A stretch of DNA of 20,412 nucleotides from Parvularia atlantis (Eukaryota; Opisthokonta; Rotosphaerida): the NCBI GenBank assembly GCA_943704415.1, contig CALSCO010000930.1:1-20412 (forward strand), in the 5' to 3' direction. Shown here piece after piece: positions 1,751 through 18,418 of the stretch. Each line of letters opens with the position of its first letter. The first letter of the stretch is position 1. A program made the position numbers and the translations under genes. The notes below the pieces were generated by a model, which saw only the letters and a program-made list of their open reading frames with translations, was not told the origin of the DNA and made no database searches.

Positions 1751-4700
1751 CTATCCGAGGTTCCACCCTTGCGGGCGCTCATTGTTGCGCATGACGTACG
1801 CGGCGATCTTGTGCCCGAGCCAGAGGTTGCGCACCTCGTTCAGCCGGCGCGCGTTGAGCACGAGCGGGCGGCCGCGGCTGCAAGCCGCGGTCAGGCCGCA
1901 CGCCGCGAGCACGCACGCGCACGCACCGCAGGCCCGCGTCCGCCTCGCCGTGCACGTCCAGGTACGGCGCGTTGTGGAACGTGCGCACGTGGTCGTGCGA
2001 GAGCAGCAGCAGGCCCTGCTTGTCGAGTAGGTACAGGCCCGTGCCGCAGTGCCGGCTGCGCGGCCATTTGGTCAGCCACCGTGCGCGCATGACCGGACGC
2101 CGCGCACCTCTTCGCGTGGCTCAGCCAGGCCGTGTCGTCCGAGTGCATGCACCGGCTCTGCGAGCACACGTAGACGTTGCAGACCAGGCACAGCACGGGC
2201 TCGCTGCGGGTTGAGCCGCAGCGCGAGCACGCCGCGTTTGTGCCGCGGCGCAGCAGCACGTCGTAGGCCTTGGGCAGCGGCATGAGGAAGTAAGGGAAGG
2301 GGTGCGGCAGCTGCGGGATCTGTACGCAGCGCGGCAGCAGTCAGCTCGTCCGCCCGCCCTTGCGAGGCGCCCGCACCATGTTCCCGAGTGAGCTGCGCTG
2401 CCGGCGCAAAGCCGAGTAGACGTTGCACCATGACACGATCACGTCAAGCATGCCCGCATCGCGGCCCTCGGTCACAATCGCGAGCGGCGGCAGCTGCAGG
2501 TAGACCATGAGCTTGTCGACCTCGGCCGCGACAGACGACATGGCGCGCAGGCGCTTGCGGATCGGTACGTCAAAGTGCGCGTAGCACAGCAGCGCCGTCG
2601 AGCGCAGGTACGGCAGCAGCATCGCCCGCACGACGCGGCTGATACCCGGGATGACTGGGCGCGCGCTCAGCACGCAAAGGAGCGGCAGGCGAGCACACGC
2701 ACCCTGCGGCAGCGTCACTGTGCCGCAAAGGGCGCGCTCGGCCACCAGATGCGCGAGCCGTGACAGCACCGCGTCCTCGGCGGCGTCCGTGCCTCGGGCC
2801 GCGCTGCGCGCACGGCGATCAGACATGCGCGCGCACCACGAGGCTAGCGCCACGCACGTGCTCGGCGCGCTGCTGTACTGGTTGTGGAGGACGTACGCGA
2901 GAAGGATGCGCACGACCTCGAGGTAGAAGCCGATGCGGATCACGTGCGCGAGGTCGAAGCGGTCCGACGGCATCGCGTAGATGGCCTGCACGAGCAGCGT
3001 GAAGGGGTCGTCCAGGAGCACGACGTCGGTCTCGTTGAGCGATGTCAGCGGTGCGTGCGGGTCGGGCAGGATCTGCCGCGTGTGGCACGTCAGATGCCGC
3101 TCGACGACCGCCACGTGCGAGCGCGCCTTGGACAGCAGCTGGTAGGCAAAGGTCGGCAGGAGGTCGTCGCGGTACGACGCTAATTGCATGATAAAGCCGA
3201 GGATGTCCTCCGAGAAGCTCTTGACCAGGAGCATTGTCTGGTTGCCCGTGTCCTCGCAGAACAGCGTGTCTGGGCGCGCGGTCAGTGTGACGCGCACTTC
3301 AGCGCGCGGACGCACTCTGCCCGTCCAGCTGCTTCTGCCCGCGCGTCGCCGCCTCGGTCGCGCGCAGCGTGTAGGCGTATGCCGAGAGCAGGTGGTGCAC
3401 GTCCGGGTACGCGTTGAGCACGGGCGGCTTGACGGCCGTCGCTTGCTGCAGTACCGAGTACCGCGAGTGGCACAGCCGGATCTTGTTCACCAGCTCGTCC
3501 AGCAGGCTTTGCAACTCGGCCGAGAGCCGGAATGAAGCGTCCGCGGTCGACGAGCCCGCGCCCAGCGTCAGTTCCACCTCGCTCGACAGCGGTGAGCGTG
3601 AGAGGCCGAGCAGCTGCGGTGCCATGTGCGACGCGCCGAACGGGCTGCCAGACAGGGCCGACAGGTTGCGCGCGGCCCCGCGCCCCGTGTTCTGGATGGT
3701 CGACGCGATCATCGTCAGCGAGCGCGACATGCGCTCGCGCAGCGCGTTGGGCAGCGACGTCGGCTGGCTCGCGCTCGCCGCCAGCGCCGCGCTCAGGCCC
3801 GAGACCAGTCGCTGCTGCCGCGGCGAGACATCTGCGTCCGCGCTGGGCGAGCCGCCCAGCCGGGCGAGGTTGTCCACCGAGCGCGAGTGGGCCGACGGCG
3901 AAGGTGTGCGCGTGACGAGTAGGCGCCGCGTGCCCGACATCGAGAACACGCCGAGCTCGCGCCGCTCGTCAAAGCTCGGCGACGTGTTGAGCGACGACGC
4001 GCTGGGCGAGTCGTGCAGCGACATGGCCCGTGCGCCCATCCCGGGCGACTGCCGCCGGCCGCCGCCGCCACTGCTGGTCCGTGCGCCGATCGCGATGGGC
4101 GCCGAGCGCACCACGGGAGACTCCAGTGGCGGGCGCGGGGCCACGCCGGGTGGCGGCTGCGGCGGCGGCAAGGCGTCCATCATCATCGCATCCGCGCGCT
4201 CGCGGGGCCGCTCGATGTGCAGAAAGTCCATCGCGCTGCCCGCGTGCTCAGCCTCGCCGCTGGCCTCATGTGCGAGGCTGGCGCTGCCGTCGTGGTACAC
4301 GTCCCGCTCGTTGCGCAGGCGCACAATCTCCTCGTCGAGGCTGTGTCCATGGGCGCGAGCGTGAGCAAACAAGGGGCCAGTGGCTGCGCAGCGCGCAGAC
4401 AGCACCTCTGCGCCAGGCCACGTGCCTCGTTGAGCCACTCGTCAAAGTGACGGTGCTCGCCGCGCGGCCGAACAGCCAGCTGTCACGGGACACACGTCAG
4501 CAACAGCGCGAGCCAGGGCGTGCTGTTGCGCACCTCGTGCGAGATGACCGGCAGGAGCGTGTTGCAGCACGACTTGCACAGTGGGCATAGGTGCGTCATG
4601 CGCTGCGGGTCGGGTGGCGGCGCGGCGTCGTCGGGCGCCTGGGCGCGGCTGGCAGACGAAGCATGAGCGCGCGCGTACACCACGCAGAACGGGCAGCGCG

Positions 4701-10641: not shown

Positions 10642-12445
<1,804 letters not shown>

Positions 12446-12632: not shown

Positions 12633-14170
12633 TCAGCGCCGCGGCGGGTACCACACGGCCGCGTTGACGCGGCGGGGCGGGTGCGCCGTAAGCGCGTACT
12701 CGATGTCCTCCCAGTGGTCCTGGTGCGTGCGGTACCACTCGACTGCGCGCCAGGCGGGCCGGCGTCAGCAGCGTCCCGCTGCGCACGCCACGCGCACGCA
12801 CTCGTCTGCTGTAACCCGGCCGCGAACGGCACGCGCGGCCGCCACCCGAGCTTCTCCAGCTTCTGCGAGTCGATCCAGTACCGCGAGTCGTTGAACTGCC
12901 GGTCCTCGACGTACTTGATCAGCTCGCCCTCGCGCTCGCTCACGCCAAACAGCCGCAGCAGCTCGCGCGCGACCGTCAGATTTGACACCTCCGAGTCCGT
13001 CCCGATGTTGTAGATCTCGCCTGGCCGCGCGGGTCAGCCCCGCCGTAGCGACCGCACACAGCGGGCGCGCACCGACTTCGCCAAAGCGCAGGATCGTCTC
13101 AAACGCGTCAGCCACGTCGCTCACATACAGGTATCGCCGCTTGTTGCGCCCGTCGCCGTGGATCCAGCTGCCGCACCGCTGTCGGGGCTGCCCACAGCGC
13201 CCGCGCGCCACTACGCACCACGGCCGGTCGCGCAGCAGCTGCATGATAAACTTGGGGATGATCTTCTCGGGAAACTGGTTCGGCCCGTACACGTTGTTGC
13301 TGCGCGTGATGATCACGGGCAGGTTGAACGACTTGCCGTACGCCTTGACCATGAACTCGGCCGCGGCTGCTCACGCGATCACACACGGCGGACGCGCACG
13401 CGCTCGATGCACGCGCGCACCCTTCGTGGCCGCGTACGGGTTGGTCGGCGCGAGCGTGCTCTCCTCGATGCACGGCGACCCGTCCGCGAGCACCTCGCCG
13501 TAGACCTCGTCTGTGCTGACGTGGATGAAGCGCTTGACGCCGTACACCTGGGCGCGGCCGCATGCATCGGCGGACCGCCCCGTGGACGCCGCGAGCGCAC
13601 GCACCCGCGACACCTCGAGCAGCACGTGCGTGCCGATGAAGTTGTCGTTGGAGAAGTCAAACGAGCTCTCGAACGAGCGGTCTGCCGTCCCGGGGTCAGG
13701 TGCCGCGCGCGGGGCAGCAAGGGGCGCCGCACCGACATGCGACTGCGCCGCAAAGTGCATCACCGTGTCGACGCGCTCCTGGCGCATGACGAGCGAGACC
13801 AGGTCAGCCGATGTCACACTGCCCTGCACGCCACGTGGTCGTGTCAGTCGCGCGCACTGTGCAGCGGCCCTCGACGCGCACCCGCACGAACGTGTAGTTT
13901 GGCGCATCGGCGACGTCGCGCAGGTTCGCGAGCGACGCGCAGTAGTCGAGCTTGTCGAGGTTGATGAACCGGCAGTCCGGGAAGGCCCGCACGAGCTTCG
14001 CAAGCACGTGCGATCCGCTGCCAACCACAGTCAGCACAACGCACGCACAAGTCGAGCACACGATCGCAGGCCACGCACATGAACCCCGCGCCGCCTGTCA
14101 CGAGCACGGCCGACGGGCGGTACTCGGCCGGCGCGACGGCGGGCGCGGGCGCGGGTGCACTGTCCGCCAT
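12633..14170 (-). CDS. TGDS: Nucleotide-sugar (dTDP/UDP-glucose) 4,6-dehydratase, TGDS/RmlB family
   Basis: NAD-dependent extended short-chain dehydrogenase that converts dTDP- or UDP-glucose to the 4-keto-6-deoxy sugar, the first step to rhamnose-type sugars. Exons are 14170-14079, 14017-13882, 13823-13733, 13681-13605, 13547-13421, 13366-13219, 13167-13073, 13020-12802 and 12742-12633, giving 364 aa. Residues: Rossmann motif GGAGFIGSH 26-34; QSHVDRSF joined across 13733/13681; catalytic T144-D145-E146 in [11 protein letters not shown]170-x3-K174 in [29 protein letters not shown]-type substrate segment; C-terminal [16 protein letters not shown]. All catalytic residues are present and the length matches human TGDS (about 350). 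Base specificity (dTDP or UDP) cannot be read from sequence; in fungi the UDP form feeds UDP-rhamnose. No later pathway enzyme is in the window. Its ATG is 6 bp from that of the divergent SET-MYND gene. Confidence 0.93.
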
Positions 14171-16261: not shown

Positions 16262-18330
16262 TCACAGGCCGCGGGGCTTGGCGAGCGGCATCGGCTTGAT
16301 CGGCAGGCGCGCGAAGCGGTCGGGCGGCGCCGTGAACTGGACGCCCTCGGTCGGCTGGTACTCCCACGACGTCGTGCGGCCTTGTCGCAGCGCCTGCGTT
16401 GCGTTGCGCGGCGGGTGAGCGCGCGGCTCATGCCGGCGCCGGGAGGCGCACCTCCTGCACAAGGAAGCGCCGCCGCTGGCTTGCGTGCACGGCGGCGCTG
16501 AGTGCGTCGGCATCCCATCGCACCTTGACCTCGTCCTGGAAGGCTGCGCCGGCGGCGCGTGTAAGCGACCACGCCCCGGCGTCGCGGACGGCACGGCGCA
16601 CTCTGCAGGCGCGACGCGTGCTCGGGCACGGTCGCCAGGTTGACCTTCTCCTCCGGATCCTGCGTGATGTTGAACAGCTGCGGGCCGTCGAGCGCCGAGT
16701 GGATGTACTTGTATTGCCCGCGCCGGATCATGAGGATGGGGCACTCGGCGCCCTCGGCGTTGTACTCGGCGAGCACCGTGTCTGGCCAGTCGACTGGAGG
16801 CGCGCGCGCACGCGCGCTTTCATCAGGGCACGTTGCGCGGGCGCAGTGCTCCGCGCGCACCCTTGTTGCCCATGTGCAGCATCGGCAGCAGCGTGTGTCC
16901 GTCGATCGGGTCGGCCAGGAGCAGCGGCGGCGCCGAGGCCGCGGCAATGTCGAGCATGGTCGGCATGACGTCGAGTAGCGAGACGTTCGCCGAGATACGC
17001 GAGGCTACGTCGGCGCTACCGTCAGGGTCGCCGTCGCGCGCCGCGAGCACGCGTGCGGCGCACAGTTGAAGCGCGACGGGCAGCTGATGATCAGCGGCAC
17101 GCGTGCCGCGTTCTCGTAAAACACCATCGGGTACCACAGCCCGCGCTCGCCGAGCATGTCGCCGTGGTCGGAGGTGAACACGACGATTGTGTCGTTCTGC
17201 AGGCCCGTGACCTCGAGCGCGCGCAGCAGCTGGCCAACCTTGTCGTCCACGTAGCTGCAAGCGCCGCGTGAGCGCGGTCTGTGCACATCTGGCCGCGCGC
17301 ACCTGATCATGCCGTAGTAGGCGTGGCGCGCGTTGCGCATGTGGTCATCCGAGATGTCGTACTGGTGGTAGCTGCACATGTCGCGGATGCGTCTGCTGTG
17401 CCCTGCGTGTGCGTGTGGTCGTGGCAGTGAGCATGCAGGACGCGCCCGCACGGCCGGCGCGCACGCACCCTCGATGTCGTCGTCCGCGTCCGCCGACGTC
17501 TTGGGCATGTCGATGTCGTCGTGGTTGTACCGGTCCCAGTACTCTTGCGTGGTCAGGTACGGGTCCTTCGGGTGCGACAGACTCACAAACATGAAGAACG
17601 GGCGCTGGGTGGCGTCGCCGCCGGCGGCCCCTGTGCGGTGCTGGCGCGCGCGCCCAATGTCGTGTAGCCGGCGCACGCTGTGGAAGATCGTGTGCTCGTC
17701 AAAATCGATCTGGCGCGTGAGGTCGTACACGCCGGCCTCGGCGACCGAGAGCATCGACGGGTGCCAGGGCTGGGGCGGGTTGTGCGCGCGCCAGTCGGGC
17801 GTGTGTGAGAAGTCGGCGGGGCACATGTCGGGCGTGAGGCGCTCCTCGAAGCCGTGCAGTTGGTCTGGCGCGCGGCGTCGTGAGCTGCGGGCGCGGCACG
17901 GCGCGGCGCAGGACGCGCACCGGCCCCGCTGAACTGCGTCTTGCCCGCGAGGATCGTGTTGTAGTTGAGCAGGCGCAGGTAGTGCGCCATGGTCGGCACG
18001 GCCGAGGGCAGCTGTGGCGCGGGATTGGTCGCTGAGCGCACGTCCACCAACCCGCGACCGCGCCACGCGCACCTCGGACGCGTTGTCAAAGGCCTCGATG
18101 CGCGACGGCAGCTGGCCCGTCAGCATCGACATGCGCGACGGCCCGCCCAGCGGGAAGTTGCAGTAGGCGTTCTCAAACACGACGCCCTTGCGGCCCAGCG
18201 TCTCGACGTGCGGCGCCTTGACCACGCGGTGGCCGTACGTCGGCAGGAACGGCGCGCCGAGCTGGTCCACGAGGATGAAGAGGAAGTTGGGCGGCGACGC
18301 GGGTGAGCCGGGCCCGCCGAGCAGCGCCAT
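16262..18330 (-). CDS. Choline-sulfatase-family protein lacking the catalytic cysteine (probable pseudoenzyme)
   Basis: Alkaline-phosphatase-superfamily sulfatase most like choline sulfatase (BetC). Exons are 18330-18073, 18011-17921, 17864-17469, 17402-17303, 17254-17064, 17004-16861, 16793-16602, 16543-16452 and 16393-16262, giving 531 aa, close to the family's usual length. Conserved: metal D22 (FILVDQL), YGHRVVKAPH, SMLTGQLPSR, DQLHGFEERLT, SLSHPKDPY (H214), YWDRYNHDDIDMP, HSRRIRDMC, SYVDDKVGQLL, metal D311-H312 (SDHGDMLGERGLWY), and the choline-sulfatase C-terminal region (AEYNAEGAECPILMIRRG). Changed: the residue converted to formylglycine is Gly62 (PLGGPSR; family C-x-[AP]-[SA]-R), the GK-x-H histidine is Gln112 (AGKTQF), and the lysine after GLWY is Pro324. 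R66 and K110 are kept. The frame is intact over nine exons, so the gene looks maintained. I see no signal peptide. It may act as a binding or regulatory protein, or be recently inactivated. Confidence 0.9.
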
Positions 18331-18418
18331 CTGAAGGGGGCGTTTGGGAGGGCGACGCAGAGAGAGGGAACCGGTTTGGGGTACAAGACGTTTGCCCACT
18401 CAGCCACTACATGCGCGC
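18331..18418. promoter_or_regulatory. 88-bp shared divergent promoter region
   Basis: This short G/A-rich spacer separates the sulfatase-family ATG (18330, minus) from the ATG of the small membrane protein (18419, plus). It has no TATA element; GGGGGCGTTTGGG and GAGAGAGGGAA tracts are visible. Both promoters must be here or in neighbouring exons. Confidence 0.45.

Follow-up and report, generated by a model that had tools for sequence, protein, structure and literature searches.

The window, by which we mean the whole 20,412-nucleotide stretch of Parvularia atlantis DNA analysed here, carries a sulfatase-family gene on its minus strand along with the other genes and family-matching segments collected in Table 1. 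The translated exons of the kinase gene resemble casein kinase II alpha, the epimerase/dehydratase gene possibly encodes a dTDP-glucose 4,6-dehydratase, and PRT6_C is the C-terminus of a UBR-type E3. Rfam and tRNA scans of the window gave no matches (0 each).

Table 1. Positions of genes, segments, exons and replaced active-site codons in the window. Exon boundaries and codon positions refer to the sulfatase gene.
Feature	Positions	Strand	Basis or remark
Triose-phosphate transporter family segment	711-1406	+	PF03151, E 6.5e-42
Two PRT6_C segments	2110-3270	-	E 3.6e-15 and 4.3e-23; gene may extend further upstream
Segment	6749-7306		no family match
Protein kinase gene	10744-12363	+	PF00069 on 10744-11115
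NAD-dependent epimerase/dehydratase gene	12803-13998	-	PF01370 passes its cut-off on 13227-13358; two segments match PF16363 without reaching its cut-off
SET-domain segment	14978-15181	+	slightly under Pfam cut-off (22.0 vs 22.4 bits)
Sulfatase gene	18330-16262	-	9 exons, 531-aa protein
Exon 1	18330-18073	-	homology + GT..AG
Exon 2	18011-17921	-	homology + GT..AG
Exon 3	17864-17469	-	homology + GT..AG
Exon 4	17402-17303	-	homology + GT..AG
Exon 5	17254-17064	-	homology + GT..AG
Exon 6	17004-16861	-	homology + GT..AG
Exon 7	16793-16602	-	homology + GT..AG
Exon 8	16543-16452	-	homology + GT..AG
Exon 9 (last, C-terminal tail)	16393-16262	-	homology + GT..AG
Codon 62, GGC, Gly at SmCS C54 (formylglycine cysteine)	18145..18147	-	motif PLGGPSR
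Codon 112, CAG, Gln at SmCS H104	17934..17936	-	motif GKTQF
Codon 131, Cys at SmCS Y123 (aromatic tunnel)	17821..17823	-	role, PMC9063841
Codon 137, His at SmCS W129 (half of choline clamp)	17803..17805	-	role, PMC9063841
Codon 152, Pro at SmCS H145 (other clamp half)	17758..17760	-	one-residue alignment gap close by
Codon 216, AAG, Lys at SmCS H201 (leaving-group acid)	17566..17568	-	motif SHPKDPY
Codon 324, CCG, Pro at SmCS K309	17128..17130	-	motif GLWYP
Interval between sulfatase gene and possible plus-strand gene (ATG 18419, weak call)	18331-18418		88 bases, head to head

The exon boundaries of the sulfatase gene were set from homology and the GT..AG rule. Its eight introns are 48–67 nt long, all begin with GTGCG, end in CAG (7/8) or TAG (1/8), and are richer in GC than the exons (0.77 and 0.68, respectively). 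The joined coding sequence of 1596 nt contains no internal stop, and its GC1/GC2/GC3 values are 0.65/0.44/0.94, the excess of GC3 over GC2 together with the intact splice sites giving it a clear coding character; the intact frame and nine exons claimed in the preliminary description are thus borne out. By descent the product is a choline sulfatase, since it matches the NCBIfam choline-sulfatase model TIGR03417 at 607.5 bits (cut-off 433.45), and it also matches the Pfam families Sulfatase (137.4 bits, cut-off 25) and Choline_sulf_C (33.7 bits, cut-off 27). Its best three solved relatives are choline sulfatases of the type found in S. meliloti (SmCS; E 2.4e-118 to 2.8e-117), and chain 7oz8, also labelled choline-sulfatase, is a weaker match (E 1.1e-35).

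Active-site residues were assigned on SmCS numbering taken from PDB 7pth, a C54S mutant whose chain numbering puts S54, H104, H201, D296, K309 and E386 where they are expected. The window protein has the length and domain order of the BetC/SmCS enzymes (S1_12 in SulfAtlas, TIGR03417; PDB 6fny, 6g5z and 7pth). The metal ligands D14, D296 and H297 are present as D22, D311 and H312, the residues Q15, R58, N75 and K102 are kept as Q23, R66, N83 and K110, and among the choline contacts compared E386 and W143 are kept as Glu407 and Trp150; the SmCS oligomer residues D74, W449, R465 and Q483 are retained as well, with D481 replaced by Glu499. Apart from being encoded by a eukaryotic gene of nine exons, it differs from these enzymes in carrying C54G, H104Q, H201K, K309P, Y123C, W129H and H145P and in showing no recognisable C-terminal gate tail. 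In place of the S1 sulfatase motif C/S-x-P/A-x-R it reads GGPSR with Gly62, and from the K102/H104 and H201/K309 pairs only K110 is kept, Q112, K216 and P324 standing in for the others. Further replacements in the pocket are Y144 to His151 and N146 to Ser153. The gate (the N495–D500 region of SmCS, which falls in the last exon) is beyond recognition in the alignment, and at the position of SmCS R494 there is Pro512, or Arg516 if a five-residue insertion is assumed, two alignments differing at this point.

According to the excerpts of the SmCS papers on which we draw, H201 and K309 form the acid pair for the leaving group (PMC5870055), H104 is thought to act on the formylglycine during sulfate release (PMC9063841), Trp129 and His145 clamp the choline with Tyr123 nearby, and Asn146 and Asp500 make up a gate (PMC9063841), the gate function of the C-terminal tail being described in both sources (PMC5870055, PMC9063841). 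Set on this numbering, the preliminary description was correct in replacing C54, H104 and K309 by Gly62, Gln112 and Pro324, in its BetC-like spacing (48 residues from Gly62 to Lys110, as from C54 to K102, and 12 from His312 to Pro324, as from H297 to K309) and in retaining all three metal ligands. Its triple catalytic loss in an intact, coding-like gene is real but incomplete, because the change of H201 to Lys216 had been overlooked and the catalytic residues replaced are four. It had also called the Gln112 site that of an acid/base histidine, whereas in the excerpts cited the leaving-group acids are H201 and K309, both of which are replaced here. Its statement that the substrate-side motifs remain holds for E386 and W143 but fails for Y123 and for the W129/H145 clamp. 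A protein changed at only three positions is ruled out, H201, Y123, W129 and H145 being changed too.

Such a picture could also arise from errors in the assembled bases, or from alternative splicing that brings the absent residues back. Nonetheless, at least six base differences would be needed over the four catalytic codons (1, 1, 2 and 2), in addition to those in the pocket, and motif 1 lies within exon 1 with no intron nearby; an artefact of this kind is very improbable.

Published SmCS mutants indicate what the replacements cost. For wild-type SmCS acting on choline sulfate, kcat/KM is 4.8e3 per s per M, and the values given for single mutants are at least 2e-3 per s per M for C54A and K309L, at least 7e-4 per s per M for H201A and 2.6 per s per M for H104A (PMC5870055), from which we calculate losses of up to ~2e6- to 7e6-fold for single changes and ~1800-fold for H104A. 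Because of these published values a protein with all four changes is very unlikely to be a good choline-sulfate hydrolase; from the residues present we strongly infer a loss of choline-sulfatase activity, and the window protein, judged in the same way, is almost certainly not a choline sulfatase. It might instead be an enzyme of another kind that hydrolyses a different ester without formylglycine, a water molecule on the metal attacking the ester and Lys216 serving as the acid. The metal ligands, R66, N83 and K110 are kept, a lysine has been introduced at the acid position, and formylglycine is not strictly needed, since SmCS lacking it retains turnover (kcat 0.27 per s, in the part of that study used here; PMC6189696). 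The cysteine is, however, still present in unmodified SmCS, and the kcat/KM bound for C54A stands far below the wild-type value (both above); moreover, both acid residues and H104 are altered too, and a supplementary title indicates that the activity of alkaline phosphatase nucleophile mutants was likely wild-type contamination (PMC3699461). We consider a new hydrolase of this sort unlikely.

Scanning the protein against 84,980 species genomes gave 79 loci, which were retrieved with words drawn from the window's own sequence, and all relatives obtained are bacterial; two stretches of viral contigs matched a word and neither is a relative. Site counts were made on 88 alignments from 78 of the 79 loci (L103 gave none). 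Where an alignment has a residue at the position in question, cysteine is present at C54 in 85/85 (three alignments end short), histidine at H104 in 83/83 (three end short and two are gapped) and lysine at K309 in 83/83 (five end short). After five partial alignments out of 79 had been left out, the first relative set consists of 74 full-length relatives, in which 73 columns reach a conservation of 97% or more. The window protein deviates at seven of them: C62G, H112Q, P116A, Y131C, H216K, K324P and R512P (relatives' residue first), although P116A also occurs in relative L025 and R512P is alignment-dependent. When each relative in this set is left out in turn, the worst loses 4 of ~74 near-invariant columns and the median is 1, as against 7/73 for the window protein. 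Fifty columns are invariant in the 74 relatives, and the window protein alters 5/11 of those in the active site and 0/39 of the others (Fisher 2e-4, which like the p values below is descriptive only).

Since these relatives had been retrieved by the window's own words, the columns of those words were removed for a recount, which gave 4/10 active-site and 0/35 other columns altered (p 0.0014), and a second set was taken from a family-model search of 185 genomes of Marinobacter's class and 289 of Roseibium's class. Five and 32 genomes, respectively, matched at E 1e-100, 6/6 and 30/44 matches were taken as loci, and of the 39 alignments that 37 loci gave, 38 were kept. The cysteine, histidine and lysine are present in 38/38 rows at each site, or in 34/34 when three first-set genes and one repeat (L108, L109, L142 and the second gene of L113) are dropped. 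With 38 rows there are 54 fixed columns, of which the window protein alters 6/13 in the active site and 2/41 elsewhere; at 95% conservation the figures are 6/13 and 4/57 (G94 and S365 being added), and with 34 rows, which have 57 fixed columns, they are 6/13 and 2/44 (p 0.001). The two altered columns outside the site are M103 and T120 with either 38 or 34 rows. The list of active-site columns was drawn from papers after the altered columns were known and the relatives are not independent, and for these reasons the p values have only the descriptive meaning given above. L113 (G063:C56:6154-9178) is itself a tandem pair of choline-sulfatase-family genes in one bacterial genome.

Pocket residues vary more among the relatives. 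In the first set W129 is Trp in 71/74 and E386 is Glu in 66/74, while H145 is His in 22/74 (33/38 in the second set) and N146 is Asn in 21/74 (25/38 in the second set). Loss of H145 alone says little, because most first-set relatives lack this histidine and yet keep the catalytic residues. W129, H145 and E386 occur together in only 21/74 of the bacterial relatives, and part of the wider family may therefore have other substrates.

Identity with the nearest bacterial relative is 49–51%, depending on the method. In a quick tree the window gene lies on a long branch (1.11) without a supported place (no starred set), so we claim neither bacterial origin nor transfer. Such a branch could fit relaxed selection, although longer ones in the same tree belong to L078 (1.24) and to SmCS (1.53), the latter an active enzyme. 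The long end branch would also suit a gene that lost its activity recently and is drifting while still unbroken, as would a C-terminal gate that is not recognisable; but the other fixed columns are kept (39/39 in the first set and 42/44 in the 34-row set), all eight introns are intact and codon-position bias is strong, which makes a recently non-functional gene improbable in our view. Because the changes cluster in the active site and nearly all other fixed columns are kept, the gene product is likely to be held under selection as a protein. With somewhat less assurance we read it as a constrained pseudoenzyme of choline-sulfatase ancestry that would carry out no useful hydrolysis of choline sulfate, which we think reasonably probable. 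The preliminary description had proposed a retained protein with a new role; the site-clustered changes and preserved core fit retention, but any new function is a guess.

The P. atlantis assembly that we searched (16.25 Mb in 616 contigs) may be incomplete. In it no second choline sulfatase was found, the best match to the window protein outside the gene's own exons having an E of only 4e-4, and a cysteine-bearing choline-sulfatase paralogue, which the preliminary description thought worth seeking, was not found there. Six-frame searches of the assembly gave no chitin synthase match, which lends no support to a fungal host, and no light-harvesting match, although absences of this kind carry little weight with 616 contigs. 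Other sulfatase-family matches lie on contigs C143, C156, C5, C165 and C21. Judged by eye, the C143 sulfatase bears the cysteine (VCSPSR), as does the C156 sulfatase (PLCTPTR), whose N-terminus looks like a typical signal peptide; those on C5 and C165 resemble other superfamily members. The assembly also encodes an ATP sulfurylase and, on contig C285, a formylglycine-generating enzyme (FGE), which carries the motif SYMCHESHC and appears to begin with a signal peptide. An FGE without a catalytic cysteine is ruled out, as both motif cysteines are kept in an alignment to solved FGEs. Read from its first Met (18330), the window protein has no hydrophobic leader or signal peptide by eye, the way in which all the signal peptides here were judged; a TGA lies immediately upstream of its open frame, though a signal peptide may be encoded by a further exon upstream.

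Since the window protein shows no signal peptide and FGE appears to have one, the two may work in different compartments. A cytosolic sulfatase in this organism may never have received formylglycine from a secretory-pathway FGE, and without formylglycine the constraint on the catalytic residues would relax. There remain the metal site, the SmCS-type Arg, Asn and Lys, and a new lysine. The constrained pseudoenzyme could putatively bind the metal together with an oxyanion resembling sulfate or phosphate, to which Lys216 would contribute charge, and might serve as a binder, sensor or scaffold in place of a catalyst. Our reason for suggesting an oxyanion is that alkaline phosphatase with glycine for its nucleophile binds phosphate more tightly: replacement of the nucleophile by Gly or Ala raised phosphate affinity ~1000-fold (pH 8, R166S background), and for S102G a binding of ~1 fM was estimated for a phosphate species, presumably the trianion (both from the portion of PMC3699461 consulted). 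Alkaline phosphatase is a distant superfamily member whose metal site and ligands differ, so the comparison is an analogy only, and on it an oxyanion binder as specified here is a tentative possibility. More doubtful still, by the same analogy, is the full proposal that this protein would be a naturally evolved equivalent of the phosphatase mutants in which glycine takes the nucleophile's place, serving as a high-affinity intracellular binder or sensor of sulfate or phosphate (or of a sulfate ester), and that its origin was triggered by the mismatch between a cytosolic sulfatase and a secretory FGE.

Many enzyme families include pseudoenzymes; kinases, phosphatases and ADP-ribosyltransferases are the examples given in a 2023 review, and the word sulfatase does not occur in the available portion of its text (PMC10211241). 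Our searches of open-licence PMC papers turned up no described pseudo-sulfatase. The SulfAtlas paper, in the extract used here, lists nine sulfatases from Lentisphaerae/Planctomycetes that have lost the active-site Arg and are putatively inactive, and in its survey alignment the nucleophile is only Cys (3202) or Ser (857) (PMC5066984). Those candidates are, like the window protein, members of the sulfatase family judged possibly inactive from the loss of a catalytic residue, but they lost the Arg, whereas the window protein keeps it and has lost the nucleophile and three partners. The alkaline phosphatase S102G and PTP Stp1 C11G proteins (PMC3699461) resemble it in having Gly for the nucleophile with the rest of the oxyanion site kept; both are, however, laboratory mutants with another metal site or none, and binding by the window protein is suggested by analogy with them.

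The gene passes the curated choline-sulfatase cut-off, and it is for this reason a caution against score-based naming of such genes. It also offers a testable case in which the site of sulfatase synthesis relative to FGE would decide whether the catalytic residues persist, and if the protein is indeed kept, it would be a sulfatase fold that serves without sulfatase chemistry.
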